A stretch of DNA of 64,000 nt from Albidovulum denitrificans (GTDB taxonomy: Bacteria > Pseudomonadota > Alphaproteobacteria > Rhodobacterales > Rhodobacteraceae), in NCBI RefSeq assembly GCF_002973535.1, contig NZ_PVEP01000003.1, positions 124,001-188,000 of the forward strand. The letters are read 5' to 3'. A model generated the notes under the pieces. It made no database searches. It saw only the letters and a program-made list of their open reading frames with translations, and was not told where the DNA came from. This document shows, piece after piece, positions 7,923 to 55,759 of this stretch; position 1 is the stretch's first letter; every line of letters starts with the position of its first letter. The position numbers and the translations under genes were made by a program.

Positions 7923-8044
7923 TAACGTCGTCTCTTCTCATCGGGCAAGAAGAATTGCAGGTCTCCCTGTCGGACTTGGGCAAAGACTATGACAGATGCG
8001 CGCGAAGGGGAACCGTCTGTTCCACCTCCCCGGAGCAGAGGTTG

Positions 8045-8058
8045 ATTGACGAGTCAAT
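8045..8058. promoter_or_regulatory. BetI-type operator, betI side
   Basis: Perfect inverted repeat ATTGAC-GA-GTCAAT within TTGATTGACGAGTCAATAA (8042-8060), 45 bp before the betI ATG. With the box at 7909 it brackets the divergent choX/betI promoter region, so one regulator could control both uptake and oxidation of choline. Confidence 0.8.
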
Positions 8059-8102
8059 AAAACGAATTTAACCATGACATATTGTCTGGGAAAGGTCGTC
8101 CG

Positions 8103-8678
8103 ATGCCGAAAGTGGGAATGGAACCCATCCGCCGGTCCGCTCTGGTCAAGGCGACGATCACCGAGATCGGGCGCCATGGCTCTCTCGACGTGACGGTCAG
8201 CCAGATCGCCAAGCGCGCGGGCATGTCCTCGGCGCTGGCGCATCACTATTTCGGCTCGAAGGAACAGATCTTCCTTGCCGCGATGCGCCATATCCTGACG
8301 ATTTACGCCGCCGAGGTGCGCGGTGCGCTTCTGACCGCGCGGGGGCCGAAGGACCGCTTGCGCGCCACGATCCTTGCCAGTTTCGGCAGCGGCAGCTTCC
8401 GGCGCGAGGTGGCCAGCGCCTGGCTGAACTTCTACGTCCTCGCCCAGACCCAGCCCCAGGCGCGGCGTCTTCTATCGGTCTATCAGGGGCGCCTGCGCTC
8501 TACCCTGCTTCACGATCTTCGCCCCCTTGTGGGCGACCGGGCCGAGACGATCGCCGACACGGTCGGCGCGCTGATCGACGGGGTCTATCTGCGCGAGGTG
8601 CTGAAGGGCGATTCCCCCACGGCCAGCAAGGCGGCGGCGATGGTCTGGGACTGCCTTGAGAGAGAAATCGGAGAATAG
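8103..8678 (+). CDS. betI: TetR-family repressor of choline genes
   Basis: 191-residue TetR regulator. The N-terminus MPKVGMEPIRRSALVKATI and the helix-turn-helix VSQIAKRAGMSSALAHHYFG are characteristic of BetI, the choline-responsive repressor of glycine-betaine synthesis. I start at the ATG at 8103; the upstream frame from a TTG at 8082 is not conserved. It is followed after 3 bp by betA, so repressor and enzyme share a transcript. Confidence 0.94.
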   Translation: MPKVGMEPIRRSALVKATITEIGRHGSLDVTVSQIAKRAGMSSALAHHYFGSKEQIFLAAMRHILTIYAAEVRGALLTARGPKDRLRATILASFGSGSFRREVASAWLNFYVLAQTQPQARRLLSVYQGRLRSTLLHDLRPLVGDRAETIADTVGALIDGVYLREVLKGDSPTASKAAAMVWDCLEREIGE

Positions 8679-8681
8679 AAG

Positions 8682-38417: not shown

Positions 38418-38603
38418 CGGAACTCCTCCCATTGGTCCGAAACAGTGATGGCATGACAAAAGCGCCATCGCGGCGGGGCGGCAACGATTAGTTCGCGGGG
38501 CGTCGGCGCCCTGTTTTTTCATTTTGTTTCAATAGCATGATGGGAAACCGGCCCTCACGCCGAAACCGGCAGGCTGGGTTGTCACACAGCCGTTACCGCC
38601 AAC

Positions 38604-38621
38604 TGTGCGGAAAACCGCACA
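38604..38621. promoter_or_regulatory. DctD-type binding site
   Basis: Perfect palindrome TGTGCGG-AAAA-CCGCACA immediately after the dctD stop and about 190 bp upstream of the dctP start. The sequence closely resembles rhizobial DctD upstream activator sites as I remember them (TGTGCGG...CCGCACA). I see no -24/-12 (TGGCAC-N5-TTGC) promoter between it and dctP. Confidence 0.65.
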
Positions 38622-41584: not shown

Positions 41585-41723
41585 GGCATCTCTCCTCCTC
41601 GGCCCCGGACCTTACCCGGCGGGCCGTGGCGAAGGCCAGCGCGTTTTCGCGGCCCCGTCCGGCGATGGGAAATTGACCCCGGCGACGGTCCGGTATCTTC
41701 TGGCCGGGCAGAAGGGGGACGCC

Positions 41724-42062
41724 ATGATCGACCGTTTCCAGGAACACGCCGCCAATGAACGCACCTTCCTGTCCTGGGTGCGCACCGCCGTGGCAGTCGC
41801 CGGGTTCGGCCTGCTGATCGAAAAGCTGCCGTCGGGGCCAGGCGGCGGCGCCACCGGCACCGCCCTGATCGGGCTTAGCGCGGCGCTGGTCCTGATGTCG
41901 ACGCTGCGTTTCCTCATCATCCGGCGGGAGATTCGCAAGGCGCGGCAGGACAGCCGCGCCTTCGGCTTTATCGAGGTTCTTTTCGCCTCGATGCTCGCCC
42001 TGCTGCTGGCGACGCTTTTCGTCTATCTCTTCGGTCTGTCGCAGGGCGCGGGCGGGGCGTGA
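41724..42062 (+). CDS. DUF202/YidH-family membrane protein
   Basis: 112-residue protein with three transmembrane helices. The N-terminal ANERTFLSWVRTAVAVAGFG is the DUF202 hallmark, followed by GTALIGLSAALVLMSTLRFL and VLFASMLALLLATLFVYLFG. The function of the family is unknown. I start at the ATG at 41724, preceded by GAAGGGGG; the longer frame from 41568 overlaps the dctB start region. It is divergent from dctB and ends 13 bp before repeat copy 3. Confidence 0.88.
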   Translation: MIDRFQEHAANERTFLSWVRTAVAVAGFGLLIEKLPSGPGGGATGTALIGLSAALVLMSTLRFLIIRREIRKARQDSRAFGFIEVLFASMLALLLATLFVYLFGLSQGAGGA

Positions 42063-42075
42063 CCCGCCCCCTTAT

Positions 42076-42166
42076 AGCATTTCGGGTTTACACTGAATCA
42101 GAATTTGAACTTATTTCGTTCGAATTCTGATACTTACTTTCTCAACGTAAACCCGAAACGCTTTAG
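42076..42166 (+). repeat. 91-bp palindromic repeat, copy 3
   Basis: AGCATTTCGGGTTT ... AAACCCGAAACGCTTTAG, inner arms CAGAATTTGAAC / GTTCGAATTCTG around TTATTTC. It nearly matches copy 2 base for base. It sits between the convergent DUF202 and aldolase/dehydrogenase genes, and the TAA stop of the latter lies inside its CTTTAG end. Confidence 0.88.
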
Positions 42167-44205
42167 CGCAGCGCCGCTTCGATATTGCCGCCATCGACGG
42201 TCAGGACATGCGCCGTGGTGCGTTCGGACTGCGCCAGCATGACAAAGCCTTCGGCGACATGGTGCGCCTCAACCTCACGGTGCAGCAGGTTGCCGCCCAT
42301 ATAGCTTGCCTCGTCGATCTGGCGGGCCGAGGCGCGGGCGGCGATCATCTCGGGCGTCAGAAGGCCCGACCGGATGCGGTCGGCGTTGATGCCGTTGACG
42401 CGGATGCCCTCGGCACCCAGTTCCAGCGCAAGCTGGCGGAGCAGGAAGAAGGTCGTCGCCTTGGGCAGGCCATAGGCGGCAAAGCCCTTGCCGGGGTTGA
42501 CCGCCTGTTTCGACACGTTGAACAGGATCTGCCCGCCCCGGCCCTGCGCCCGGAACACCGCCGTCGCGGCCTGCGCGAAGGCGAGGTGGGCGAAGAAGTT
42601 CAGCTCGAACGACGCGCGCAGGGTATCGTCGGGAAGGGTCGCCACCTCCCCCACCATCGCGGCCCCGGCGTTGGAGACAAGGATGTCGAGCCCGCCGAAG
42701 CGGGCCACGCAGGCCGCGACCGCCCCTTCGGCCGCGCCGGTTTCCGTGATGTCGCAGGCCAGCGCGCCATGATCGCCGCCGAGCGCCTGCAACGCGGTTT
42801 CAAGCGCGCCCGCGTCGCGGTCCACCAGGAAAACCGTCGCGCCCTGCGCCTTGAACGCCCGCGCCGTGGCCAACCCGATGGCGCCCGCGCCGCCGGTGAC
42901 AAGGACGACGCGGCCCTGAAAGACCGGCGCCTTGCCCTTGCCCAGCTTCGCCTGTTCCAGCGACCAGTATTCCATGTCGAACAGGTCCGCCTCGGCAATC
43001 GGGCGGAAGCCGCCCGCCGCCTCGCCGTCGCGCATCACGCGCTGCGACTGTTCGCCGATATCGGCCGCGATCCGCGCCGCCTTGGCATCCGCGCCGATGC
43101 CGACAAGACCGGCCCCGACGATCCAGGCGAGGTTGGGAAGCGGGGAGAGCATCGTCTTGCTGCCGCCAAAGCGCGGGGCCTGACGGCCGAAATAGGCGGT
43201 GTAACCGGCGACGAAGCGGTCGACCGCCGCCGCAATCGCCCCGGCCCCGCCCGCGACGGTCGCACCGTCAAGGACCAGCGGATGGCCCTTGGTGCGGATC
43301 ACATGGTCAGGCGTCGCGACGCCGCGGGTCGCCAGGTCCGCAAGGTCGGGACGCGCAAGGAAGGCATCGACCACCCCGTTGCTGCGCAGGTCGAAGACCG
43401 GCATCGGCGCGCCGTCGGGCAGATGCGCGCCGATGGCGCCGCGCAGGGCCGAAAGCGTCCGGGCCAGATCGGGCTGCGGCAGCGCCGCGACCGGGTGCAG
43501 CGGTTCGGGGCGGCGGTCGGCCAGCCAGGCCTCAACCATGTTCGTATGCGCGACGATCCGGTCATAGGAGGATTTCGCATCCGGTCCCCAGGCAAAATGG
43601 CCGTGATTGACCAGAAGCAGTCCCTCGGCATCGGGATGCCCTTCGAACGTCTCGGCGGCGAGCTTCGCCAGCGCGAAACCGGGCATGACATAGGGGACCA
43701 GCGCCATCCGGCCGCCAAAGATCTCCCGCGTGGCCGCTTCGACCTCGGGCAGGTTGGCGAGCGCGAGCATCGCCGTGGCGTGGGTGTGATCGACGTATTT
43801 ATGCGGCAGATAGGCGTGCAGCAGCGTTTCCACCGAGGGGTTGGGCGCCGTGCTGTCAAGAAGGTTCGACCGCTGGACGTTCACCATCTCCTCATCCGAC
43901 AGCGCCGGAAGGTCCCTGAGCCGCATCAGCGGCGCCATGCGTACCGCCGGAAGGCCCGCCGCTGCGATGGTGCCAAGGTCCCAGCCAGAGCCCTTGATGT
44001 GGATGACATCGACCTCATCGCCAAAGACGTCGCGGGCGCGGAGCTTCACCGAGGTATTGCCGCCGCCATGCATCACCAGATCCGGGTCCTGGCCGATGAT
44101 CCGCGAGGTATAGACACGCAGCGCCAGTTCGCGGGCCATCGGGTCCGCACCGGCGGCCTCCTGCATCGCGCGGGCCTCGGCATCTTGCCAACGGTTGATG
44201 ATCAT
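42163..44205 (-). CDS. class II aldolase/short-chain dehydrogenase fusion
   Basis: 680-residue bifunctional protein of the RhaD type. The N-terminal class II aldolase domain (about 1-400) has the phosphate/metal motifs VMHGGGNTSVK and DHTHATAMLALAN plus LLLVNHGHFAWG. The C-terminal SDR (about 425-680) has VLVTGGAGAIGLATARAF, SNAGAAMVGEV and the YGLPK active site. Fusions of this kind cleave a deoxy-ketose 1-phosphate to DHAP and an aldehyde, then oxidise or reduce the aldehyde. Next to mtnA/mtnK the likely substrate is 5-methylthioribulose 1-phosphate or 5-deoxyribulose 1-phosphate, but rhamnulose 1-phosphate is not excluded. Confidence 0.9.
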   Translation of the reverse strand: MIINRWQDAEARAMQEAAGADPMARELALRVYTSRIIGQDPDLVMHGGGNTSVKLRARDVFGDEVDVIHIKGSGWDLGTIAAAGLPAVRMAPLMRLRDLPALSDEEMVNVQRSNLLDSTAPNPSVETLLHAYLPHKYVDHTHATAMLALANLPEVEAATREIFGGRMALVPYVMPGFALAKLAAETFEGHPDAEGLLLVNHGHFAWGPDAKSSYDRIVAHTNMVEAWLADRRPEPLHPVAALPQPDLARTLSALRGAIGAHLPDGAPMPVFDLRSNGVVDAFLARPDLADLATRGVATPDHVIRTKGHPLVLDGATVAGGAGAIAAAVDRFVAGYTAYFGRQAPRFGGSKTMLSPLPNLAWIVGAGLVGIGADAKAARIAADIGEQSQRVMRDGEAAGGFRPIAEADLFDMEYWSLEQAKLGKGKAPVFQGRVVLVTGGAGAIGLATARAFKAQGATVFLVDRDAGALETALQALGGDHGALACDITETGAAEGAVAACVARFGGLDILVSNAGAAMVGEVATLPDDTLRASFELNFFAHLAFAQAATAVFRAQGRGGQILFNVSKQAVNPGKGFAAYGLPKATTFFLLRQLALELGAEGIRVNGINADRIRSGLLTPEMIAARASARQIDEASYMGGNLLHREVEAHHVAEGFVMLAQSERTTAHVLTVDGGNIEAALR

Positions 44206-44270
44206 CTGAAAAACTCCTGCTAGGCTCGCGATCTGTCCGGGGCGGCGGTGCCGCTTGATCTTTCGCGGGC

Positions 44271-44299
44271 TTTATACAAAAGTCAAATGATGTTGTCAT
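44271..44299 (-). promoter_or_regulatory. promoter of the aldolase gene with overlapping operator motif
   Basis: On the minus strand: ATGACA, 17 bp, TATAAA, with CATTTGAC in the spacer. TGAC occurs twice, 13 bp apart, as at the transketolase promoter at 55064. The site also lies just upstream of the divergent SorC/DeoR-type regulator gene, so it may serve both directions. Confidence 0.5.
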
Positions 44300-44320
44300 A
44301 AATAAAAACAAGGGGGTCGG

Positions 44321-45289
44321 GTGGCCGGAGCGAAGCGCAGGACGACGGGCCAGATCAGCGGCGAGAACGTGGTGATCGAGGTCGCCTGGATGTATTATCA
44401 GGAAGGGCTGAACCAGAAGGAGATCGCCGACCGGCTCGGGATTTCGCGGGCGACGGTGGTGAACTACCTTCAGGAGGCACGCGAGCAGGGACTGGTGCGG
44501 ATCTCCCTCAGGGCCGAGGCGTTCACCCGCCACCGCGCCGCCGTGGGTCTTTGCGACCGCTTCGGGCTGCGCGCCGCCTATGTCGTGCCGGATGAGGGCG
44601 CGGATGTGGAAACGACGTTTCACCGGGTCGTGCAGGGTGCCGCCGATTGGTTGCCCGATCTGCTGGAACCGGGCGACCGGCTGGGCCTTGCCTGGGGGCG
44701 GACGATCTATGACCTCGCCCAGGCGACGGAGCGGCGGCGGATCGAGGGGCTTTCGGTCGTGCAGCTTGTGGGGTCCATGTCCACGCCCTACGGTTTCACG
44801 GCCGAGGCCTGTTCCACCCGTCTTGCCCAGCGGCTTGGGGCGCTTTGCTACAACCTGCACGCCCCGGCGGTGCTGTCGAGCGGCGAACTGGCGGCGGCGC
44901 TGCGGTCAGAGCCGATCATCCGCGACCAGCTGGCCCGGCTTGAGACCTGCAACAAGTTCCTGTTCTCGGTCGGCACCTGCCTGTCCGACAGTCATGTCGT
45001 CGGCTCGGGCGTCGCGACGCAGGCAGAGCTTGACTGGTATGTCGCGCATGGGGCCGAAGGGGTTCTGTGCGGGCGTTTCATCGACGGCGCGGGCAAGGGG
45101 ATCGACGGGCCGCTGGAACCGCGCATGATCGGCATCCCGCTGGAAAAACTCGTCGGGCTTCAGATGGGCATCCTCGTGACCCCCGGCCTCGACAAGGTCG
45201 AAGCCTCGCGCGCGGCGATGCGGGGGGGCTATGTCTCCCACCTTGTGACCAGCCTTGGCGTGGCCGAGGCGCTGCTGGCGGGGGAATAG
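44321..45289 (+). CDS. SorC/DeoR-type sugar-binding transcriptional regulator
   Basis: 322-residue regulator. An N-terminal helix-turn-helix (WMYYQEGLNQKEIADRLGIS then RATVVNYLQEAREQGLV) precedes a sugar-phosphate-binding domain (GDRLGLAWGRTIYDLAQA, VVQLVGSMSTPYGFTAE). SorC proteins typically sense phosphorylated sugars. It uses a GTG start at 44321 with AAGGGGG upstream. Its position between the aldolase and mtnAK genes makes it the likely regulator of the whole 42-55 kb set, where three promoters share TTTGACA half-sites. Confidence 0.9.
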   Translation: MAGAKRRTTGQISGENVVIEVAWMYYQEGLNQKEIADRLGISRATVVNYLQEAREQGLVRISLRAEAFTRHRAAVGLCDRFGLRAAYVVPDEGADVETTFHRVVQGAADWLPDLLEPGDRLGLAWGRTIYDLAQATERRRIEGLSVVQLVGSMSTPYGFTAEACSTRLAQRLGALCYNLHAPAVLSSGELAAALRSEPIIRDQLARLETCNKFLFSVGTCLSDSHVVGSGVATQAELDWYVAHGAEGVLCGRFIDGAGKGIDGPLEPRMIGIPLEKLVGLQMGILVTPGLDKVEASRAAMRGGYVSHLVTSLGVAEALLAGE

Positions 45290-45312
45290 GGCGCCCCCCG
45301 CCGCCGCCCGGC

Positions 45313-46407
45313 CTAACCTTTCGCCAGATCGGGGAACATCGCCGCCATCGCCGCCGCGTCGGCCTTGCAGACCCCGCGTTCGGTGATGAGGCCGGTCACA
45401 AGTTCGGCCGGGGTCACGTCGAAGGCGGGGTTGCGCGCGGGTGTGCCGTCGGGCGAGATCTGGACCGAGACGATGTTGCCCCCGGCATCGCGGCCCTGAA
45501 CATGGGTCACCTCCTCGCCGCCGCGCTCCTCGATCGGGATTTCCCTGATCCCGTCCGACACGGTCCAGTCGATCGTGGGCGAGGGCAGCGCGACGTAGAA
45601 GGGCACGCCATTGGCCTTCGCCGCCAGCGCCTTCAGATAGGTGCCGATCTTGTTGCAGACATCACCGCGCGCGGTGGTGCGGTCGGTGCCGACGATGACC
45701 AGATCGACCTCGCCATGCTGCATCATGTGGCCACCGGCGTTGTCCACGATCAGGTCATGGCTGACGCCGTGGCTGTTCAGTTCCCAGCTTGTCAGTTGCG
45801 CGCCCTGATTGCGGGGGCGGGTTTCGTCGACGAAGACATGGACGTCGATCCCGTCCTCGACCGCGTGGTAGATCGGTGAGGTGGCGGTCCCCCAGTCGAC
45901 GGTCGCGGGCCAGCCCGCGTTGCAATGGGTCAAGACATTGACACGGCCACCGCCCTTCTTCTTCGCGATCTCGCGGATGATCTCCAGCCCGTGCAACCCG
46001 ATCTGGCGGTTGATCTCCACATCCTCGTCGCAAATCTCGGCGGCGCGGCGATAGGCGGCCTCGGCGCGGGCCTCGGGCGGAAGCGGTTGCAGGACGCGCG
46101 TCATCTCATCGAGCGCCCATTTCAGGTTGATCGCGGTCGGCCGGGTTTCATGCAGCACCTCCCACGTCTCGCGAAGCGAGGCGTCCGACGGATCGGCGGC
46201 CATCTGCACCGCGACGCCATAGGCCGCCGTCGCCCCGATCAGCGGTGCGCCACGCACCCACATGTCGCGGATCGCGTCGGCGAAATCCTGACGGGTGGCC
46301 AGGGGCACGATCCGAAGCTCGTGCGGCAGCCAGCGCTGGTCGATGATGCGCACCTCTCCCGAAGGTTCGCGCCAGATGGAGCGGTAGGGCTTGCCGTCGA
46401 TCTTCAT
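45313..46407 (-). CDS. mtnA: S-methyl-5-thioribose-1-phosphate isomerase
   Basis: 364-residue aldose-ketose isomerase that turns methylthioribose 1-phosphate into methylthioribulose 1-phosphate; homologues also accept 5-deoxyribose 1-phosphate. [18 protein letters not shown], the catalytic cysteine in [18 protein letters not shown] and the catalytic aspartate in [19 protein letters not shown] are present. CNAGW replaces the more usual CNTGA, so it belongs to a divergent branch. The start at 46407 overlaps the mtnK stop (ATGA), coupling the two steps. Confidence 0.93.
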
Positions 46408-47669
46408 AGGATGGCCTCCTGATTGATATGGCGGGCGAGGTTCAGCACCTCCTCCATGCCGGTGATGGTGCCGCGCCGCACGGCCAGCGCCCGGCCAAGG
46501 CGCAGGCCCCGCGCCTCGCACTTTGCGCGCAACGCCTCATCCGCGATCTGGTCGTATTCGGCGATATGCGCAAGGCTGAGCGTGCGGCGGTGCATCTCGA
46601 TCCCGCAAAAGCCCAGCGTGTCGCGCCAGATCGCGGCAAGCCGGTCGATCCGCGCCTGTTCGGCGCCGATGCCGTGGCCCTGATCCTCGAAAAGGGTGCG
46701 TTCGTAAAGGATGCCGTTCCTCTCCTCGCGCCAGAGGCGGGTGAACTCGGCGGCGAACTCTGCCCAAAGCTCCTCCACCACGGACAATATCCACTCCTGA
46801 TACCCGGCGCGGCTGCCTTCGGTTTCGGCATGGCCGGGCTGGGCGAAATAGGCCATCAGGAAATTCGCGATCAGCATGCCGACGTCGAAACCCATCGGCC
46901 CATAGGTCGCGAATTCCGGGTCGATGACGCGGGTCTCCGTGTCCGACACCATGACCGAGCCGGTGTGCAGGTCGCCATGCAGCATCGTTTCCGCATTGGT
47001 GGCGAAGGCGGCCTTGAGGTGCTGCGCCGCGATCTTGAGGTCGATATCGGCGCGCAGTTCCGCCACGACCGGGTCCAACTGCGGGGTGTGGCGGTTCATC
47101 TCGGCCGCGAAATAGGGATCGGAGAAAACGAGGTTCTCGGTAATGTCGCAAAGTTCCACATTGCCCGCGAAAAGTGCCAGATCGGCCTTGCGGTCGGCGG
47201 TCTTCATCGACAGGTCGGAGCCCCGGAACAGCGTGCGCGCGCAGAACCGGCCCAATACGCCGCCAAGGTCGGGATGGCGTTTGCCCGCCATCAGCGAATG
47301 GCGCAGGATCACATGGGGGCTGAGGAACTCCATCACCACCAGCGCCTGTTCCTCATCGAAATGAAAGACCTCGGGGACCGAGCCGGGGTCGCGCGCCGCC
47401 TGCCGGATCAGCGCGTTATATTCGAAATAGGCGCGTTTCAGGGGCAGCGGCCAGCTTTCGCCGACAAGGCGCACATAGGGCAGCGCCTGCTTGGCGATCA
47501 CGCTGCCGTCCGGGCCGTCGATGATGAAGACGAGGTTGAGGTTGCCGTCGCCCACCTCGCGCACGGTCCAGGCGGACGGGTCGCCCGCACGGGAACGGAC
47601 CGCCTCGATCCCGCCCAGCCGGGCGGCGAGGGTTTGCGGCGTCAAAGGCGCATAGTCACGGGTTGCCAA
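46404..47669 (-). CDS. mtnK: S-methyl-5-thioribose kinase
   Basis: 421-residue kinase of the choline/aminoglycoside kinase fold that phosphorylates 5-methylthioribose at C1. The catalytic loop [15 protein letters not shown], the metal site [17 protein letters not shown] and [17 protein letters not shown] match MtnK. I choose a TTG start at 47669 because GGAGGAG lies 5 bp upstream; the first ATG (47759) lies inside the divergent operator. MtnK implies that free methylthioribose (or 5-deoxyribose), rather than methylthioadenosine plus phosphate, enters the pathway. Confidence 0.92.
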
Positions 47670-47748
47670 AGGTCTCCTCCCCCTTGTCGAAACTGGCCCC
47701 GGCCGCTGTCCGCGACGGGCTGCCGGATGCAGATTCCCCGGTTTCAGG

Positions 47749-47776
47749 TCAATTGTCAAATTGTATTGACATTTGA
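47749..47776. promoter_or_regulatory. operator between mtnK and the sugar ABC operon
   Basis: Near-perfect dyad: arms TCAATTGTCAA and TTGACATTTGA (one mismatch) separated by 6 bp. On the plus strand TTGTCA-N17-AAGATT gives a promoter reading into the ABC genes, and TTGACA elements also face mtnK. It shares the TTTGACA half-site with the aldolase and transketolase promoters. Confidence 0.6.
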
Positions 47777-47820
47777 AGATTTACCGGACAGCCTCCAGCC
47801 CAGTGGAGGAGAAAACGGCT

Positions 47821-49341
47821 TTGAACGACCCGGCGATCCGATTGGCTGGCCTGCGCAAGGCGTTTGGGCGCAACCAGGTTCTGCGTGGTATCGACCTGAC
47901 CATCCCGGCGGGGCGGGTGACCGTGCTGATGGGGGCGAACGGGGCCGGGAAATCGACGCTGGTGAAGATCCTCTGCGGCGTTCACGGCGCCGATGCGGGG
48001 ACGGTGACGCTGGACGGCAGGCCCTTCGCGCCCGCCTCGCCTTCGGCCGCGCTGCGGGCGGGTGTCGTGACCGTGCATCAGAACATCAATGACGGTGTTG
48101 TCCCCGATCTCGACGTCGCGTCGAACCTGCTTCTCGACACGCTCGCCGACGGGTCCGGAACCTTTCTCAACCGCCGCAGGATGCGCGAGCGGGCGCGCGA
48201 GATCGCCGCAGCGGTCGGGCTTGAGATCGACGTCACGCGGCAGGTGGCCGACCTGTCGCTGGCTGACCGCCAACTGGTCGCCATCGCCCGCGCCATGGCC
48301 CACGACCCGCGCCTGATGATTCTGGATGAACCGACATCGTCGCTTTCGGCGGTCGAGGCGGAGCGGCTGTTCGACCTGATCGAAAGCCTGCGCGACCGGG
48401 GTGTCGCGATCCTTTATATCTCGCACCGGATGTCGGATATCCGCCGCCTTGCCGACCGGATCGTGTCGATGCGCGACGGCCAGATCGCGGGCGTGTTCGA
48501 GGAGGCGCCTCTCGACTATTCCGGGTCGGTCCGGGCGATGCTGGGCCATGAGATGACCGAGGCCGACATCACCATCCCCGCGCCGGGCCGCACGGTCCTT
48601 GAGGTCAGCGACCTTGTCCTGCGGCCGGGCGCGGCCCCCTTCAGCTTGGTCGCGCGGGAAAATGAGGTGATCGCGATCACAGGGCTGGTCGGGTCGGGCA
48701 AGTCCGACCTTGCGGGCGCGCTTTTCGGGCTTGCGCCGCCGCTGTCGGGCCAGATGGTTCTGGACGGCCGCCCCCATCGCCCCACAGACGCGCGCGCCGC
48801 GATTGCGGCCGGGGTCTACATGTGTCCGAAGGACCGGCTGATCACGGCGGTGGTGGCCGATTTCGACATCACCCGCAACATCACCATCCCCTTCCTGCCG
48901 CGCCACAGCCGCGCCAGCTTTCTGTCGCGCGGGTCCGAAAGGCGCACCGCCGAACGGATGATCGGCGAGATGGGGGTGATCTGCCAAACCCCGATGGACG
49001 GCATCCTGACCCTGTCGGGCGGCAATCAGCAGAAGGTCATGGTCGCGCGGTGGATGGCCGAAGCGTCGCGCCTTCTGATCCTCGACGAGCCGTTTCAGGG
49101 TGTCGACATTCAGGCCCGCCGCGACATCGGCCACAAGATCCGCGCCACCGCCGGAACCCGCGCCACCATCGTCTTCGTGGCCGAACTGGATGAGGCGCTT
49201 GAGATCGCCGACCGGATCCTCGTGATGAGCGAGCATTCCATCGTCGGTGAACACAGGAACGAGAATATCGACGTGTCCGCGATCATGGCCGAAGTGGTCG
49301 AGGCCGCGCCGGCACGCGCAGCAGGACTTCAGCATGGATAA
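47821..49341 (+). CDS. sugar ABC transporter ATPase, RbsA/MglA type
   Basis: 506-residue protein with two ATPase domains. The first has Walker A GANGAGKST, signature LSLADRQLVAIARAM and Walker B LMILDEPTSSLS; the second has the degenerate GLVGSGKSD, signature LSGGNQQKVMVARWM and LLILDEPFQGVD. This layout defines the ribose/galactose class. I place the start at the TTG at 47821, with GGAGGAG 9 bp upstream; a TTG at 47773 would begin in the operator. It overlaps the permease gene by 8 bp. Confidence 0.92.
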   Translation: MNDPAIRLAGLRKAFGRNQVLRGIDLTIPAGRVTVLMGANGAGKSTLVKILCGVHGADAGTVTLDGRPFAPASPSAALRAGVVTVHQNINDGVVPDLDVASNLLLDTLADGSGTFLNRRRMRERAREIAAAVGLEIDVTRQVADLSLADRQLVAIARAMAHDPRLMILDEPTSSLSAVEAERLFDLIESLRDRGVAILYISHRMSDIRRLADRIVSMRDGQIAGVFEEAPLDYSGSVRAMLGHEMTEADITIPAPGRTVLEVSDLVLRPGAAPFSLVARENEVIAITGLVGSGKSDLAGALFGLAPPLSGQMVLDGRPHRPTDARAAIAAGVYMCPKDRLITAVVADFDITRNITIPFLPRHSRASFLSRGSERRTAERMIGEMGVICQTPMDGILTLSGGNQQKVMVARWMAEASRLLILDEPFQGVDIQARRDIGHKIRATAGTRATIVFVAELDEALEIADRILVMSEHSIVGEHRNENIDVSAIMAEVVEAAPARAAGLQHG

Positions 49342-50350
49342 CCGCACAAGCCTTGTCGACCTCGCCATCCGCTACGGTTTCCTTGTCCTGATGGCGGCGC
49401 TGATCGTCTTTTTCGGGATCATGGCCGAAGGGTTCCTGACACCATTTTCGGCGGTCTTCATCCTGCAATCGGTGGCGATCACCGGCATCCTCGCGCTTGG
49501 CGTGACGGCGACTCTGGTGGTGGGCGGCTTCGACCTGTCCATCGGGGCGGTCGCGACCTCGGCCCTGATGCTGTCCTCCTATGTCATGGTCGTATGGGAG
49601 ATGAGCGCGCTTTCGGCGGTGCTGATCTGCCTTGCGATGGGGGCCTTCGTGGGCCTTATCAACGGGCTTCTGGTGGTGAAGATGCGGGTGCCGGATCTGC
49701 TTGCCACGCTGGGCATGATGTTCCTTCTGGTCGGCGCGCAGCGCATCCCGACAGAGGGGCGCTCCATCTCCACCGGGATGAGCCTGCCGGACGGGTCGGT
49801 CGCGAATGGCAAGTTCTCCGAGGCGTTCCTGGCGCTTGGCCGCCACCGCATCGACTTCATCGCGCCGAACCTGGTGCCGCTTTCGGTGATCTTCCTGATC
49901 GCCATCGCTATCGGTGTCTGGGTGTTTCTGGAAACCACGCGGCACGGGCGGCTGATGTATGCCATCGGGTCGAACCAGCAGGCCGCCAGCCTCGCCGGGG
50001 CCAATGTCAACCGCTACAAGATCGTGGCCTACATGATCTCGGGCGTTCTCGCCTCGGTCGGGGGCATCCTTCTGGCGGCGCGTCTGGGGCGGGGCGATGT
50101 CGCCTCGGGCAACAACCTTCTGCTCGATTCCGTCGCCGCCGCGCTCATCGGCTTTGCGGTGCTGGGCGCGTCAAAGCCCAACGCCTTCGGCACGGCGATC
50201 GGCGCGCTTTTCGTCGGCATCCTGCTTCAGGGCCTGACGATGATGAACGCGCCTTACTACACGCAGGATTTCGTCAAGGGGGCGGTGCTTGTCATCGCGC
50301 TCGTCTTCACTTTCGCGCTGTCCGGCAGAGGAGGCCGGGCGCGCGGCTGA
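49334..50350 (+). CDS. sugar ABC transporter permease, RbsC type
   Basis: 338-residue permease with eight to ten transmembrane helices (FLVLMAALIVFFGIMAEGFL, GILALGVTATLVVGGFDLSI, GAFVGLINGLLVVKMRVPDL, AALIGFAVLGASKPNAFGTA). GFDLSIGAV is the conserved signature of RbsC-like permeases (usually GGIDLSVG). The ATG at 49334 lies within the ATPase 3' end, so translation is coupled. The cargo is probably a pentose derivative, from the neighbouring genes. Confidence 0.92.
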   Translation: MDNRTSLVDLAIRYGFLVLMAALIVFFGIMAEGFLTPFSAVFILQSVAITGILALGVTATLVVGGFDLSIGAVATSALMLSSYVMVVWEMSALSAVLICLAMGAFVGLINGLLVVKMRVPDLLATLGMMFLLVGAQRIPTEGRSISTGMSLPDGSVANGKFSEAFLALGRHRIDFIAPNLVPLSVIFLIAIAIGVWVFLETTRHGRLMYAIGSNQQAASLAGANVNRYKIVAYMISGVLASVGGILLAARLGRGDVASGNNLLLDSVAAALIGFAVLGASKPNAFGTAIGALFVGILLQGLTMMNAPYYTQDFVKGAVLVIALVFTFALSGRGGRARG

Positions 50351-50386
50351 ATGCCAACCGGAACTGAAAAACAGGAGAGGAAGATC

Positions 50387-51424
50387 ATGATTTCCAGACG
50401 CCTATTCACGGGGCTGATCGGCTCTGTCGCGATGATGCCGGGCCTTGCCTTTGGCGCCGACATGCCCGCGCCCTTCGACAATCCCGGCGCGGTCAAGATC
50501 GCGCTGGTGCGCTATCTTTCGACCGGCGACTTCTTCCAGGCCTATCTGTCGGGCGTGGAAAAGCAGGCCGCTGCCATCGGCGTGGACCTGCGTGTGCTTG
50601 ACAGCCGTCAGGACGCGGCGCTGCAATCGGACATGGTCGACCAGGCCATCGCGCTTGGCGTTGACGGCATCATCATCCAGCACGGCCTGACCGAGTCGAT
50701 GAAGGACGCCGCCCAGCGCGCGGTCGATGCCGGGATCAAGGTCGTGGCCTTCGACGTGAACGTCGACAATGCCGCGATCCCGCAGGTCGAACAGTCGGAC
50801 CGCGATCTGGCCCGTCTGGCGCTGGAACAGGCGCTGAAGGACAATGGCACCAGCTTTACCGCCGGGTATGTCTATGTGCCGGGGATCGCGCCGCTCGACC
50901 GTCGGGATGAGACCTGGCAGAAGGTGAAGGCCGACAATCCCGGCATCAATCAGGTGGCCGAGTTCGGCACACTCGACAACCCGATCGCGAATTCGGTCGC
51001 GAACCAGGCGCGCTCGGCCCTGTCGGCCAATCCCGACATTACGGTGATGTTCGCGCCCTATGACGAATTCGCCAAGGGCGTGAAGATCGCCGTGGACGAG
51101 GCGGAGATGTCCGGCAAGGTCTCCATCTACTCCGCCGATGTCTCCACCTCCGACATCGCCGCGATGCGCGAGGACGGGTCGGCCTGGAAGGCCACCGCCG
51201 CCACCAACCCGGCAGTGGTAGGCGAGGTTTCGGTGCGTACCCTGGCGATGCTGCTGGCGGGTGAGGACCCCGGCCACAACGTCATCGTGCCGCCGACGCT
51301 TATCACCCAGCAGATGCTGAACGATCTCGATATCACGAATATGGAGGACCTGAGCGCCAAGGTCCCGGCCTTCGCCCATGCCGATGTCTCGGTTCCCGGC
51401 TGGATGCCGCTGCCGCAACGCTGA
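50387..51424 (+). CDS. sugar ABC transporter periplasmic binding protein
   Basis: 345-residue RbsB-like binding protein. The signal peptide MISRRLFTGLIGSVAMMPGL precedes AFGADMPAPFDNPGAVKIAL. The core reads VDQAIALGVDGIIIQHGLTE, GIKVVAFDVNVDN and NPDITVMFAPYDEFAKGVKI, the periplasmic-binding-protein-like fold of ribose and autoinducer-2 binders. The ATG at 50387 has AGGAGAGG upstream. Ligand unknown; 5-methylthioribose or 5-deoxyribose is my inference from mtnK/mtnA. Confidence 0.91.
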   Translation: MISRRLFTGLIGSVAMMPGLAFGADMPAPFDNPGAVKIALVRYLSTGDFFQAYLSGVEKQAAAIGVDLRVLDSRQDAALQSDMVDQAIALGVDGIIIQHGLTESMKDAAQRAVDAGIKVVAFDVNVDNAAIPQVEQSDRDLARLALEQALKDNGTSFTAGYVYVPGIAPLDRRDETWQKVKADNPGINQVAEFGTLDNPIANSVANQARSALSANPDITVMFAPYDEFAKGVKIAVDEAEMSGKVSIYSADVSTSDIAAMREDGSAWKATAATNPAVVGEVSVRTLAMLLAGEDPGHNVIVPPTLITQQMLNDLDITNMEDLSAKVPAFAHADVSVPGWMPLPQR

Positions 51425-51504
51425 CGCGGCGGGACAATTGCATTAGGCTGGCCGGGGCGCGCGGGAGTATACGCGCGCCCCGGCTTTCTTGAGGGAGGTG
51501 GAGA

Positions 51505-51948
51505 ATGCTCAAGGGGATCGACCCGCGCATGACGGCGGATCTTCTGGACCTGCTGATGCGGTTGGGACATGGCGACGAACTGGTGCTTGTCGATTGCAAT
51601 TACCCCGCCCATGCGACCGCCTCCGAAACCGTCAGCGGGCAGCTTGTCGAACTGCCGGGTTTCAACGCCCCGGCGGCTATCGCGCTGATCTGCGGGCTGA
51701 TGCCTCTGGACCATTTCGTGCCGCAAGGCGCGTTCTGGATGGAAGAGGACGGCAAGGGCGCTGCCCCGGCCGAGGTGCATCGCGACGCGCTGGCGGTGCT
51801 GGGGGCGGAAATGCCCGAGGGCGGCGCGGTCGGTTCGCTGGAACGGCAGGCCTTCTATGCCCGCGCGCGGACCGGCTTTGGTGTGGTGCGCTGCACCGAA
51901 ACGCGGGCCTTCGGCTGTTTCATCCTGCGCAAGGGCGTGATCTTCTGA
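51505..51948 (+). CDS. RbsD/FucU-family sugar mutarotase
   Basis: 147-residue protein of the RbsD/FucU fold, which equilibrates anomers of ribose or fucose before kinases act. LMRLGHGDELVLVDCNYPAH carries the active-site His-Asp pair, and the C-terminal RCTETRAFGCFILRKGVIF matches the conserved tail containing Tyr/Phe and Asn-like ligands. It ends the ABC operon, 80 bp after the binding-protein gene. A mutarotase fits with MtnK, which needs one anomer of the imported sugar. Confidence 0.9.
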   Translation: MLKGIDPRMTADLLDLLMRLGHGDELVLVDCNYPAHATASETVSGQLVELPGFNAPAAIALICGLMPLDHFVPQGAFWMEEDGKGAAPAEVHRDALAVLGAEMPEGGAVGSLERQAFYARARTGFGVVRCTETRAFGCFILRKGVIF

Positions 51949-51957
51949 CCGGGCGCG

Positions 51958-53079
51958 CTATCCATCCACCCGGTCCAGCGCGGCGCGCATCGCGGCGATC
52001 CCCTCGCCGATCCGCTCCCCCAGACGCAAAAGCGATCCGCCCAGCAGATAGACCACGTCGGTGCCATACATCGCCGCCATGTCGCCCGCGCGCTCGACGC
52101 TCATCCCGCCACCGGGGCTTGGCAGCATCGCGCGACCCGGTCCGTTCGGATCGCGGCAGGCGGTTGCGATCTGCGCGCAGTCGCCTGCCGTAAAGCCGAA
52201 ACGCCCGCCGACATTGGGAAAGACCGAGATATCGGCCCCGGCCAGCCGTTGCAGCGTGCCGAACATCACCCCGTGATCAAAGCCCGTCTCGGGCGACAGG
52301 ACGTAGGGGCCAAGGAAAGAGGGATGCGTCATCACCGGCATGTTCAGCGCGCCGTCCCGCGCGATCCGGGCCACGACGCCGAACCCCAAAAGCCCCGGCA
52401 TCACCAGAAGCCCATCGGCGCCCGCGTCCTTTGCGAAGCGGATATTCGCCTCGATCTGATCCGGCGCACCGGCGAGCGAGGGAAAGTAAAGCGCCCTGCC
52501 CCCGGTCTCTGCATTGGCCCGCGCGACGGCGGCAACGGTCTTTTCCACCCGCTCGCGGAAGGGCGCCATGGGCTGATCCATGATGCCGTGATCTTCCTTG
52601 ACCACGTCCGCCCCGGCCTTCGCGCAAAGATAGCCGAGACGCGCCAGGGCATCCGCGTTCAGCCCCTGCGGCTTCAGCACCGGGGCGATCATGCCGCCAT
52701 GTGTGCGCCCGCAGAGCGCGCGGATGCCGTCGATGCCGAAGCGCGGACCGGGGTGGCGGCGGGTCATCTCTGCCCCCGGATCGACGGCGATCACCCGCAG
52801 CCCGCGCTGGATCGAGGAGTTACCGAAGATCACGTTGAAGAATTGCGCAAGCTCCCGCCCCGCGCTGTCGGGGGAATAGCTGATCGTGGCGCGGAACCGG
52901 CCCTCGGCCTCTGCCCCGATTTCCTCGATCCGGCCAAGGATTTCGGTCTCGATATAGCCTGCGGGGACGACGTCGCGCGGAATCTCCACCGTCTGCTCCA
53001 GCGCGATCGCCCCGGCCCGCGCCTTCGCCTCGGTCAGGTCCGGCGCGAAGATCCGGTAGGTGACGGAAAAGCGCATCAA
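51958..53079 (-). CDS. RuBisCO-like protein (form IV)
   Basis: 373-residue protein with the RuBisCO large-subunit N-terminal domain (FSVTYRIFAPDLTEAKARAG) and TIM barrel. Lys136 in IAPVLKPQGL matches the catalytic KPK lysine; KEDH at 161-164 matches the carbamylated-lysine KDDE, with the Glu ligand replaced by His164. The loop-6 lysine is missing, so it cannot fix CO2. Relatives isomerise methylthioribulose 1-phosphate or act in apionate degradation. Its start overlaps the transketolase C-subunit stop (ATGA), linking the two functions. Confidence 0.92.
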   Translation of the reverse strand: MMRFSVTYRIFAPDLTEAKARAGAIALEQTVEIPRDVVPAGYIETEILGRIEEIGAEAEGRFRATISYSPDSAGRELAQFFNVIFGNSSIQRGLRVIAVDPGAEMTRRHPGPRFGIDGIRALCGRTHGGMIAPVLKPQGLNADALARLGYLCAKAGADVVKEDHGIMDQPMAPFRERVEKTVAAVARANAETGGRALYFPSLAGAPDQIEANIRFAKDAGADGLLVMPGLLGFGVVARIARDGALNMPVMTHPSFLGPYVLSPETGFDHGVMFGTLQRLAGADISVFPNVGGRFGFTAGDCAQIATACRDPNGPGRAMLPSPGGGMSVERAGDMAAMYGTDVVYLLGGSLLRLGERIGEGIAAMRAALDRVDG

Positions 53080-54080
53080 AGCGCCTCCGCCTTCACGGCG
53101 GAATGGACATCCTCGACGCGGACCTCGCCCAGCGCGGCCTCGTCGATGCCGGTTTCCTGCCCGGTCAGCCGTTCGATCGCGCGCACCAGCGCCAGCGCGT
53201 CAAGCCCGTAGTGGCGCATCAGGTAGGGGCGTGATCCGCCATGCGCGTAGGTATCCTGAAGGCCAAGCCGGATCAGCCGTTTCGCCATGCCCGCCTCGGC
53301 CATCGCCTCGGCAACCATGGTGCCGATGCCCCCCGCGACAAGGTGGTTTTCCAGCGTGACGACCCCGTGACGGACCGAGGCCGCGTGGTCAAGGATCTGC
53401 GCCGCGTCGAAAGGCTTCAGCGTGCCAAGATGCAGATGGCGCACCGATACCCCGGCGGCATCAAGCGCGCCGCGCGCGCGGATCGCCTCTTCTGTCGTGA
53501 TCCCTGCGGTGACGACCAGAACGTCGCCGCCTTCGGACAGGACCCGCATCTGGCCAACCCGGAAGGGGGTGTCGAAGAGCCTCGGGATCGCGCCGCGCAG
53601 CACCCGGCAATAAACCGGCCCGTCGATACTGTCGGCGGCCTCGACGATGCCCTCGACCTCGGTCGCGTCGCCGGTTTCCAGAACCGTCATGTTGGGGATC
53701 GTCCGCATGACCGCGACATCCTCGATCGCCTGATGGGTCATGCCGCCGGGCGTCGTGATACCCGGCAAGAAGCCCATCAGCCGGACCTTGCGCCGTGGAT
53801 AGGCGACAGAGGCCATGAGCTGATCGTAGGGCCTGCGGTACAGGAAGACGCCGAAGGTATGAAGGAAGGGGCGGAACCCGGCAAGGCCGAGACCACCGGC
53901 GAAGGACAGCATGTTCTGTTCGGCCATCCCCATCGACAGGAACTGTTCGGGGTGGCGGTCGCGAAAGCCGTCGATTTCGCAGCTCGACGTCAGGTCGGCG
54001 GACAGGCAGAGGACGTCGGGGTGGCGCAGGGCATAGTCCTCGAAAGCGCGCGCATAGGGGCGGTTGACCATTTCGACCAT
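53076..54080 (-). CDS. transketolase, C-terminal subunit
   Basis: 334-residue half of a split transketolase: pyrimidine-binding domain (FLSMGMAEQNMLSFAGGLGL holds the catalytic Glu of MAEQN) plus C-terminal domain (VVTAGITTEEAIRARGALDA, VVTLENHLVAGGIGTMVAEA). With the neighbouring N-terminal subunit it forms a thiamine diphosphate enzyme that moves two-carbon units between sugar phosphates. The start at 54080 has GAGAG upstream. It overlaps the RuBisCO-like gene by ATGA. Confidence 0.91.
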   Translation of the reverse strand: MVEMVNRPYARAFEDYALRHPDVLCLSADLTSSCEIDGFRDRHPEQFLSMGMAEQNMLSFAGGLGLAGFRPFLHTFGVFLYRRPYDQLMASVAYPRRKVRLMGFLPGITTPGGMTHQAIEDVAVMRTIPNMTVLETGDATEVEGIVEAADSIDGPVYCRVLRGAIPRLFDTPFRVGQMRVLSEGGDVLVVTAGITTEEAIRARGALDAAGVSVRHLHLGTLKPFDAAQILDHAASVRHGVVTLENHLVAGGIGTMVAEAMAEAGMAKRLIRLGLQDTYAHGGSRPYLMRHYGLDALALVRAIERLTGQETGIDEAALGEVRVEDVHSAVKAEAL

Positions 54081-54091
54081 CGTCTCTCTCC

Positions 54092-55018
54092 TCAATGGCT
54101 GTAGGCGATCGGGTCGATGCCCAGTTCTGCGGCAATCTCGCGGTTCATCGCGGCGCGTTCCTCCTCGGTCTTGAAGCGGACGTAATGCAGGCGCGGGAAG
54201 CGCTGACGCAGAAAGCCCATGCCCTGCGTCGGCGAGGTATGGGCAAGGATGACAAGGGGCCTGCCCTCATGCGGTTCGGCCTTTGCCTGGCGCATGGCGG
54301 GCAGGTCGTGGCCGTCGATCTCGCAGACCACGGCGCCGAAATCGCGTAGCTTGGTGGCGATGTCGCCAACCTCCATCACGCTGTCCATCGCGCCGTCGCA
54401 TTGCTGTGCGTTCACGTCCATGATCGCCCAGAGGTTGTCGATGCCGTGGAACGCGGCGGCCTGCACCGCCTCCCATGTCTGGCCCTCCTGCACCTCGCCG
54501 TCGGACATGAAGACGCAGACCTCGCCCGTCTCGCCGCGCCGCTTGCGGCCCCAGGCCAGCCCCGCCCCGGTCGACAGCCCGATGCCAAGGGTGCCGTTAT
54601 GCACCTCCATCCCCGGCGAATGCTCCGCCCCGATCATCTCGACCGAGGAGCCGTCCTTGTTGAACATCTCAAGCCCTTCGGGCGCCATCCGCCCGGTCTC
54701 GATCAGCGTCGCATAGGCGACGAGGGCGTAATGTGCGGGGGCGATGAAAAGGCGATCGAAATGGGGTTCGAACGGGCCGTTATAGCCCGCGCCGGTGACA
54801 TAGTGGGGATTGTCGGCCGAGGGGACGCCGCGGAACGGCTCCGGGATCATCGGCAGGACCGGCTGCCCGAGGTTGAGCGCCTCGTTATACAGAAAGGCCA
54901 GTTGCTCGGCCGCCGAACAGGCCTGGCTGAGATAGCCGCCATTGTTGCGCATCGTATGTTCGAAGACGCGGCGGCGAATACCCAGCGCGACCTCTTCCGT
55001 CGTCTTTTCGTTTTGCAA
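54092..55018 (-). CDS. transketolase, N-terminal subunit
   Basis: 308-residue thiamine-diphosphate-binding half. The cofactor motif reads MSDGEVQEGQTWEAVQAAAF ending in MDVNAQQ, so the usual GDG is SDG. Substrate-site histidines appear in IGAEHSPGMEVHNGTLGIGL. The gene is first in the minus-strand trio TK-N, TK-C, RuBisCO-like, with a promoter carrying the shared TTTGACA motif. Split transketolases are often dedicated to a special sugar pathway rather than central metabolism. Confidence 0.91.
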   Translation of the reverse strand: MQNEKTTEEVALGIRRRVFEHTMRNNGGYLSQACSAAEQLAFLYNEALNLGQPVLPMIPEPFRGVPSADNPHYVTGAGYNGPFEPHFDRLFIAPAHYALVAYATLIETGRMAPEGLEMFNKDGSSVEMIGAEHSPGMEVHNGTLGIGLSTGAGLAWGRKRRGETGEVCVFMSDGEVQEGQTWEAVQAAAFHGIDNLWAIMDVNAQQCDGAMDSVMEVGDIATKLRDFGAVVCEIDGHDLPAMRQAKAEPHEGRPLVILAHTSPTQGMGFLRQRFPRLHYVRFKTEEERAAMNREIAAELGIDPIAYSH

Positions 55019-55063
55019 CTTCGGACCTCATTTCCGGGGGGAGACAGGGGGACGAATGGTTGT

Positions 55064-55097
55064 TTTATACATTTGACATGTATGTTTGACAATTGAC
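55064..55097 (-). promoter_or_regulatory. promoter of the transketolase/RuBisCO-like operon with operator motif
   Basis: On the minus strand TTGTCA, 17 bp, TATAAA (-35 at 55087-55092, -10 at 55064-55069). On the plus strand TTTGACA occurs at 55072 and 55085, 13 bp apart, with a further TTGAC at 55093. The layout matches the aldolase promoter at 44271. Confidence 0.6.
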
Positions 55098-55190
55098 TTT
55101 TTGCGTGGAGATAGCGGCACGGACCATCCGCGCGCCCATGCGCAAGACGAAAGACCCCGCAGGGGGCGCACAAGGGTCGGTCATGGAAAT

Positions 55191-55267
55191 TGGCGATCCC
55201 GCGAGGACTCGAACCCCGAACCTGCTGATTAGAAGTCAGCTGCTCTATCCAGTTGAGCTACGGGACC
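55191..55267 (-). tRNA. tRNA-Arg (UCU)
   Basis: 77-nt cloverleaf on the minus strand: acceptor GGTCCCG / CGGGATC with one G-U pair, D-arm AGCTCAACTGGATAGAGCA, anticodon TCT (55231-55233) in CTTCTAA, T-arm CGGGGTTCGAGTCCTCG, encoded CCA. It lies between the transketolase operon promoter and a GNAT gene; no integration remnants are seen at its 3' end. Confidence 0.95.
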
Positions 55268-55297
55268 GCTCTTTTCGCTTTATCGGCGCGGGGGGTG

Positions 55298-55759
55298 TCA
55301 GGCAAGGCTCCGCGTCATGTAGACGCTCATCGGGTCGTCGCGGTAGTCGGCGAAGGGCGGGCACGGGACGAAGCCTGCCGTCTGGTAAAGCCGCCTTGCG
55401 GGGGCGAAGCCTTGCTGCGATCCGGTTTCAAGGCTGAGCCGGGTGATACCTTCGGCCTTTGCCGCCGAAACGAGGTGATCCAGCATCCGCCGCGCAAGGC
55501 CCCGCCCGCGCAGTTCGGACAGGACATGCATCGACTTGATCTCCCCCTCCGCGGGGCCGATCCGCTTGACCGCGCCCATGCCGACGGGGCGGCCATCCTC
55601 GCGCATGACGTAAAAGAAAATGCCCGGCGCCGCGAGGTCGGCGGCGTCGAGCATGTGGATGCTTTCAGGTGGCGTGTCGGCGTGCATCGCCTCGGCATGG
55701 CGGGCCATCAGGTCTGACAGCACCGCCTGAACCGGGCTTTCCGCCGCGATGGTGATCAC
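55298..55759 (-). CDS. GNAT-family N-acetyltransferase
   Basis: 153-residue acetyl-CoA-dependent acetyltransferase. The core GEIKSMHVLSELRGRGLARR contains the acetyl-CoA pyrophosphate loop (R/Q-x-x-G-x-G/A), followed by RMLDHLVSAAKAEGITRLSL and the C-terminal RLYQTAGFVPCPPFADY. The layout resembles the YsnE group, but the substrate is unknown. The gene overlaps the upstream secreted-protein gene by ATGA. Confidence 0.9.
   Translation of the reverse strand: MITIAAESPVQAVLSDLMARHAEAMHADTPPESIHMLDAADLAAPGIFFYVMREDGRPVGMGAVKRIGPAEGEIKSMHVLSELRGRGLARRMLDHLVSAAKAEGITRLSLETGSQQGFAPARRLYQTAGFVPCPPFADYRDDPMSVYMTRSLA

Follow-up and report, generated by a model that had tools for sequence, protein, structure and literature searches.

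A gene cluster of Albidovulum denitrificans probably serves the import and catabolism of 5-methylthioribose (MTR), possibly of 5-deoxyribose, and would dispose of the sugar through two outlets, one being cleavage by an aldolase and the other rearrangement by a RuBisCO-like protein (RLP) followed by a transketolase split into an N-terminal (TKN) and a C-terminal subunit (TKC). The cluster lies in the 64,000-nucleotide stretch analysed here (the window), which covers positions 124001-188000 of contig NZ_PVEP01000003.1 in a genome of 4.1 Mb. A sequence-only reading of this DNA had proposed that an imported sugar enters through MtnK and has both outlets, and our genomic comparisons lend support to that hypothesis. 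It is carried by the company that the RLP and transketolase genes keep with mtnA and mtnK in other genomes, and by the mutual exclusion of the transketolase and the cupin that stands beside related RLPs. The eleven genes, all open frames in the ORF, Pfam and NCBIfam scans, and the operator-like palindromes of the cluster are as follows (window coordinates).

42163..44205, minus strand: class II aldolase fused to a short-chain dehydrogenase/reductase (SDR), 680 residues (Pfam Aldolase_II and adh_short); putative outlet 1
44281..44298, plus strand: operator-like palindrome between aldolase fusion and regulator (2 mismatches to TGTCAA-N6-TTGACA)
44321..45289, plus strand: SorC/DeoR-type transcriptional regulator (Pfam Sugar-bind, 170.8 bits; below the NCBIfam DeoR cut-off)
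45313..46407, minus strand: MtnA, 5-methylthioribose-1-phosphate isomerase (TIGR00512, 426 bits against a cut-off of 279)
46404..47759, minus strand: MtnK, 5-methylthioribose kinase (TIGR01767, 487 bits against a cut-off of 275)
47754..47771, plus strand: operator-like palindrome between mtnK and importer (exact TGTCAA-N6-TTGACA)
47773..49341, plus strand: sugar ABC importer ATPase (two ABC_tran stretches)
49325..50350, plus strand: ABC importer permease, ribose type (Pfam BPD_transp_2; nearest NCBIfam model a ribose permease, below cut-off)
50387..51424, plus strand: periplasmic binding protein (SBP), related to the 5-methylthioribose-binding protein 4ry8
51505..51948, plus strand: RbsD/FucU-family mutarotase (Pfam PF05025 above cut-off; NCBIfam fucose mutarotase below cut-off)
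51958..53079, minus strand: RLP (Pfam RuBisCO_large, 60.2 against a cut-off of 30.1); putative outlet 2, step 1
53076..54095, minus strand: TKC (Pfam Transket_pyr and Transketolase_C above cut-offs); putative outlet 2, step 2
54092..55018, minus strand: TKN (Pfam Transketolase_N, 51.8 bits against a cut-off of 22); putative outlet 2, step 2
55061..55091, plus strand: two overlapping operator-like palindromes upstream of TKN (3 and 2 mismatches)

The gene list of the sequence-only reading is borne out, every gene that it named standing where it had been placed and the set being conserved across genomes. The pairs mtnA/mtnK, RLP/TKC and TKC/TKN overlap by 4 bases. MtnK probably starts at the TTG at 47669, which has GGAG ahead of it, and the ATG at 53076 is a possible alternative start for the RLP.

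A split transketolase in the place of a cupin

Within the family, an RLP was found in 18 of 248 genomes, the host included. Of the other 17, 16 have TKN and TKC next to the RLP, 15 have MtnA nearby and 14 MtnK. A second survey took the best 80 of 275 relatives (the named loci; L and G numbers are our handles for loci and genomes), and near the RLP it found TKC in 76, TKN in 75, MtnA in 66, MtnK and the SBP in 65 each, the SorC regulator in 61, the aldolase fusion in 45 and RbsD in 18. Many of these loci are cut by contig ends, the aldolase fusion is undercounted because it lies near the edge of the fetched flank, and the counts of the two surveys are not independent, since the named loci overlap the family genomes (e.g., L054 is G191, L055 is G111 and L105 is G215). 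Among the 59 loci with full 10-kb flanks, TKN is present in 56, MtnA in 54 and MtnK in 53. TKN is missing near the RLP in five of the 80, two of which are cut by contig ends (L065, L069) and three are not (L083, L088, L091); it lies elsewhere in the genome in the four tested (L069, L083, L088, L091). Two further arrangements tie the genes together. In G447, from another family, a single frame of 656 residues (L157:7149-9119) fuses MtnA (TIGR00512 at 3-333) to TKN (436-629) and is followed by TKC and the RLP. In G915, which belongs to yet another family, one strand carries the series mtnK-mtnA-TKN-TKC-RLP, and the genes for the importer, the aldolase fusion and the regulator are next to it. The neighbourhood survey that the sequence-only reading had suggested, for co-occurrence of RLP and transketolase with mtnK and mtnA, was therefore positive.

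Across the class, an RLP match was obtained in 20 of 385 genomes. Besides that of the window, two have the transketolase adjoining, ten have a cupin and four have neither within a short locus; the remaining three are remote, and two of them, which are of OiaX type and on a distant branch, adjoin OiaK-type kinases. TKN is confined to three of the 385 genomes (the window's, G447 and G588), so that it is missing from all ten cupin-linked genomes. Identification of the cupins was visual, with three sampled ones (that of G227 included) confirmed as Cupin_2, and on the Rhodopseudomonas palustris precedent they would be methylsulfurylases. A profile built from the ten RLP-adjacent Cupin_2 proteins found no match in 19 of 20 genomes with an RLP of the window's kind, the host genome being one of the 19; six cupin genomes used as positive controls match by construction, having contributed to the profile. 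The cupin is equally absent from 15 of 15 named genomes with such an RLP, all 15 of which have TKN. This brings to 34 the TKN-bearing records without a cupin (33 distinct, G215 and L105 being the same), some of the absences being possible gaps in incomplete drafts (G118, 84%; G225, 89%). The exception is G227, where a Cupin_2 protein close to the methylsulfurylase-like cupins is present, TKN is absent, and the RLP is nested deep in the transketolase clade, an apparent partner swap (L156:8893-9540 and L033); the cupin and the RLP are on different contigs of a 340-contig draft, and a binning or assembly fault is possible. Because cupin and transketolase exclude each other, the RLP product would be the transketolase substrate, and we regard this exclusion as the best evidence for such a role.

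The RLP tree has 56 rows, comprising the window, 11 of the 17 family loci, 24 of the 80 named loci, 18 class-survey RLPs (L117-L132, L134 and L135, the partial L133 being omitted) and two chains from the PDB. RLPs of the window's kind form a separate clade of 36 rows (99/99), the nearest to the window's being from Defluviimonas and Allgaiera (Paracoccaceae). The cupin-linked RLPs, the four without a cupin in view and 3qfw make up one clade (99/96), and the remote transketolase-linked L117 and L118 pair weakly (88/71). The tree program issued a warning about long branches that come together between the cupin group and the outgroup, which leaves sister relations unsure. The predicted structure of the window's RLP (predicted local distance difference test, pLDDT, 94.3) finds 3qfw, an R. 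palustris RLP, as its first match; 3qfw is also nearest by sequence, and we infer that it is RLP1, RLP2 being 2qyg by title. The lysines of KPxG and K[E/D]DH are kept in both window-kind and cupin-linked RLPs, which have His where MtnW has Glu.

Two other identities were tried for the RLP and rejected. It is no MtnW enolase of the Bacillus subtilis type, judging by its scores (166 against 409 for PRK09549 and 121 against 513.6 for TIGR03332) and by the tree. Nor is it OiaX, the RLP of the apionate pathway: it reaches 77 bits against a cut-off of 700 and is distant in the tree, and no gene of the locus encodes an OiaK-type kinase. The OiaX-like L135, with 453 bits, also stays below that cut-off.

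Proposed route and its two outlets

The closest solved relative of the SBP by sequence is 4ry8 (217 bits; the next, 5ulb, reaches 129 bits), and its predicted structure (pLDDT 84.9) likewise matches the fold of 4ry8 best (E 1.3e-32, 38% identity). The SBP is thus a homologue of a protein entitled '5-methylthioribose transporter solute binding protein TLET_1677', the crystal of which presumably holds the ligand. Family and precedent suggest MTR as the ligand, which the ABC importer would bring in. In one relative, the draft genome with L024, the importer ATPase matches in two pieces (7742-9240), perhaps through a frameshift or an assembly error.

MtnK and MtnA both lie far above their curated cut-offs, and their reactions can be predicted from family and precedent: MtnK would convert MTR to MTR-1-phosphate, and MtnA would isomerise this to 5-methylthioribulose 1-phosphate (MTRu-1P). 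Some relatives without MtnK nearby combine MtnA with a purine nucleoside phosphorylase and an amidohydrolase-family deaminase (below every model's cut-off). One strand of L032 carries this trio and, in succession, a BisC-like gene, TKN, TKC and the RLP; the trio also occurs in L087/L159 and L102. Deaminase-like and phosphorylase genes stand beside the RLP at L032:2000-5159 and L159:5850-9037, both with MtnA, and at L083:7594-9762. They may form a nucleoside entry route, in which the MtnA substrate would derive from a 5'-substituted adenosine. Universal methionine salvage was rejected for the host on account of MtnD: acireductone dioxygenase (PF03079) exceeds its cut-off in none of 20 genomes, host included, mtnB and mtnC not having been searched genome-wide. 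The statement of the sequence-only reading that the locus lacks mtnB, mtnC, mtnD and mtnP holds among the NCBIfam matches of ten locus proteins (for the aldolase fusion, the best 25 of 219), where no such model appears; PF01048, the family holding MtnP and MtnN, has three matches elsewhere in the host genome.

The locus contains the gene set of the dihydroxyacetone phosphate (DHAP) shunt, namely MtnK or MtnP, MtnA and a class II aldolase. The aldolase fusion scores 857.5 bits with NF006192 (cut-off 639) and falls below the cut-off of the RhaD fusion model TIGR02632. On family and precedent, its aldolase domain would cleave MTRu-1P to DHAP and methylthioacetaldehyde, and the fused SDR domain would oxidise or reduce the latter. 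Of 20 RLP genomes, 13 have full-length homologues of at least 46% identity; in G107 the aldolase half is matched at 51%, G152 and G158 have only homologues of 34-36%, and G215, G228, G002 and G447 have none at threshold. Because a close full-length fusion is missing from seven of the 20, the RLP/transketolase outlet can occur without it.

In the second outlet, the RLP would be an MTRu-1P 1,3-isomerase, as family and precedent suggest. According to passages of PMC5893883, RLP1 of R. palustris converts MTRu-1P to 1-methylthio-xylulose and 1-methylthio-ribulose 5-phosphate at 3:1, and the cupin then releases methanethiol. Here the RLP would shift the carbonyl to give the same 5-phosphates, and the split transketolase, replacing the cupin methylsulfurylase, would cut between C2 and C3, freeing glyceraldehyde 3-phosphate (GAP) and retaining the methylthio-C2 unit on thiamine diphosphate. 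The likeliest fate of this unit would be loss of methanethiol and release as an acetyl group, in the form of acetate or acetyl phosphate; the alternative would be transfer to an aldose acceptor. The donor and the products of the transketolase are what we infer. That methanethiol would be expelled and an acetyl unit left behind is suggested by analogy with phosphoketolase, which expels water from its bound intermediate, and with sulfoacetaldehyde acetyltransferase.

TKN and TKC together possess the N, pyrimidine-binding and C-terminal domains of a transketolase, and their nearest solved relatives are 6yak (TKN) and 6yaj (TKC), from the split transketolase of Carboxydothermus hydrogenoformans. 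The two-subunit build is common to both systems, but they differ in the active site, as the window's clade has near-invariant Tyr29 and Ile129 in TKN and Leu110 and Gly117 in TKC. When aligned with 6yak and 6yaj, these stand at the positions of yeast His30, His103, His469 and Asp477, respectively, with the numbering and roles that we take the yeast residues to have. The donor-site residues of ordinary transketolases (equivalents of His30, His103 and Asp477) are therefore replaced by Tyr29, Ile129 and Gly117. Ile129 is found in all 87 rows and Tyr29 in 85 of them, the other two having an X and a gap, and both Leu110 and Gly117 are found in 85 of 85; the catalytic Glu59, His96, His278 and His121 are kept in the clade. 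Loss of the contact with the C1 hydroxyl would fit a donor with CH3S or H at C1. Of 398 genomes sampled from the whole phylum, six had TKN, and each of the six belongs to the window's class. One scan of viral_contigs, for viral occurrence, gave no relative.

The transketolase could also take the 5-substituted sugar as an acceptor, or recycle the triose of outlet 1 as an ordinary transketolase, with the RLP on a separate branch, and passages of PMC8102628 describe a cyanobacterial transketolase that adds a C2 unit to 5-deoxyribose. We give this little credence, given that the genes for the RLP and the two transketolase subunits overlap by 4 bases each in the window and are neighbours in 16 of 17 relatives, that the exclusion of the cupin points to the RLP product, and that four active-site positions differ from those of ordinary transketolases. 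Occupying the cupin's place, the RLP/transketolase pair might instead, like the cupin route, feed isoprenoid synthesis by supplying 1-deoxyxylulose 5-phosphate (DXP) or some other precursor. This seems very improbable to us: the pair is tied to an importer, a separate DXP synthase (DXS) gene exceeds its cut-off in 20 of 20 genomes (which by itself does not exclude a second source), and we know of no transketolase chemistry that gives DXP from a methylthio compound without a reductant. The same DXS genes rule out the split transketolase as the DXS of the cell.

Choice of substrate

The sequence-only reading had offered both MTR and 5-deoxyribose as substrates. As the imported sugar, MTR is the better supported of the two, favoured by the SBP match and by neighbours resembling S-oxide reductases. 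BisC-like S/N-oxide reductase genes are directly beside TKN or the RLP in four of 107 loci (L032:5207-7435, L098:4472-6751, L114:11131-13434 and L153:10649-12967), and one gene away from the split transketolase in a further locus (L167:6301-8556), which hints at a sulfur compound, perhaps MTR sulfoxide.

If 5-deoxyribose were the main substrate, the RLP would turn 5-deoxyribulose 1-phosphate into DXP, and the transketolase would reverse the carbon-carbon step of DXP synthase, yielding GAP and hydroxyethyl-thiamine diphosphate. Such a role would suit the Ile at the yeast His103 position, which fits a donor without a C1 hydroxyl, and the score of TKC with the DXS model, 150 bits, though below cut-off; and the MtnK-like DrdK accepts 5-deoxyribose and MTR about equally, as reported in part of PMC6079011. 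We nevertheless think it unlikely, since the SBP is nearest to an MTR-binding protein, S-oxide-reductase-like genes are among the neighbours, and the exclusion concerns a cupin whose known job is the removal of methanethiol.

Several points weigh against a system devoted to MTR. MtnK-type kinases also take 5-deoxyribose (passages of PMC6079011), which makes it a possible substrate; the changes in the active site could mean another transketolase substrate; and the two BisC-like proteins scanned score 846-848 bits, below the family cut-off of 1018. A genome of the same genus, G010, has no RLP match, and the system is therefore patchy. Eight of the 80 named loci (L036, L037, L087, L095, L098, L102, L109 and L114) have TKN but only some or none of mtnK, mtnA and the SBP; several are cut by contig ends, and L087 and L102 carry a more distant mtnA. 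Finally, other sugar genes (kinases, AraD/FucA-like aldolase or epimerase, SorC regulator, importer) lie near the split transketolase at L114:460-7040, L153:13114-17403 and L167:193-5336, and L167 has no RLP match within the 19.9 kb fetched. The MTR reading does not account for these sugar genes.

The sugar kinases, aldolases or importers of these last three loci might indicate that the RLP and the transketolase act on some unrelated, apionate-like sugar acid or ketose and are near mtnK and mtnA through shared regulation only. This is hard to reconcile with the MtnA-TKN fusion, the mtnK-mtnA-TKN-TKC-RLP run and the frequency of mtnA (66 of 80) and mtnK (65 of 80) at the named loci, and we hold it to be quite improbable. 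The sequence-only reading had named, as one outcome that would speak against it, neighbourhoods that always hold apionate or other sugar genes and never mtnK/mtnA; they were not what we found, the OiaX-type RLPs being distant and beside OiaK-type kinases.

For the MTR route, we put forward a bolder version only tentatively, as one that may well prove wrong. The split transketolase might be a thiamine-dependent lyase new to its family, converting 1-methylthio-xylulose 5-phosphate to GAP, methanethiol and an acetyl unit. RLPs would then head a full catabolic route for the carbon and sulfur of MTR, fed by the importer in many Paracoccaceae and Hyphomicrobiales and by nucleosides (deaminase and phosphorylase) in some relatives; thanks to S-oxide reductases, a few could also use the sulfoxide.

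Regulation, flanking genes and known systems

The SorC/DeoR-type regulator presumably reads the palindromes. With up to 3 mismatches the window has 13 matches against a shuffle mean of 7.8, and 13 or more were reached in 7 of 100 shuffles; because this is not far above chance, the count alone says little, and the placement is more telling. Palindromes with at least 10 of 12 positions occur in 48 of 60 mtnK-importer regions of relatives (0.3 in shuffles), in 22 of 40 aldolase-regulator regions (0.1) and in 14 of 76 TKN-upstream regions (0.47), the query being the window's exact copy, itself outside the 60 regions counted, and the shuffles being mononucleotide in 40-base blocks. Upstream of TKN they are found in 13 of 33 cases where TKN has its own promoter, in one of 34 where it follows the SBP gene and in none of eight where it follows RbsD. 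The cluster is real, conserved and apparently co-regulated.

A tRNA gene (55194-55267, minus strand) adjoins the TKN end of the cluster, and Rfam at gathering thresholds over 41000-56000 gave tRNA only. Also adjoining the cluster, at 37413-41584, are frames that resemble, by eye, a TRAP-type binding protein and a sensor kinase/response regulator pair.

One of the closest known systems, the 5'-methylthioadenosine (MTA)-isoprenoid shunt, is reportedly the subject of work by Erb and by Warlick, both in 2012. In Rhodospirillum rubrum and R. palustris it consists of RLP1 and the cupin methylsulfurylase, according to passages of PMC5893883. As there, MtnA is followed by a related RLP, the nearest solved one being from R. 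palustris; unlike it, the window's cluster has a split transketolase instead of the cupin, a dedicated importer and MtnK. The DHAP shunt for 5-deoxyribose disposal is described, in parts of PMC6079011 and PMC8102628 (see also PMC10986504), as mtnK or mtnP, mtnA and a class II aldolase. It shares MtnK, MtnA, the aldolase and a sugar transporter with our locus, and one published cluster, as partly described there, has a fucose-mutarotase homologue; the window differs in the fusion of its aldolase to an SDR and in the additional RLP/transketolase outlet. SqwGH of the sulfo-TK pathway (passages of PMC9594981) is comparable by description, not by sequence, as a transketolase recruited to the breakdown of a sulfur-bearing sugar, but there the sulfonate and the transferred ketol are at opposite ends of the sugar, whereas the window's system would carry sulfur on the transferred C2 unit. 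With OiaX the window's RLP has only the superfamily in common, the two being distant in the tree. Among the matches listed from the open-licence PMC literature, no paper connects RLP and transketolase in the breakdown of MTR or 5-deoxyribose, which is weak evidence of absence.

The cluster would thus be a new form of the RLP-based methylthioribose shunts, one in which a transketolase takes the position of the cupin. In many alphaproteobacteria a related RLP is coupled to another class of enzyme, and in one case the partners seem to have been exchanged naturally. If our reading is true, it adds an outlet for MTR, which would be an imported source of carbon and sulfur, and it would imply a possible source of methanethiol and a new reaction for a thiamine enzyme. 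The question of what else RLPs do is thereby narrowed to a few assays.

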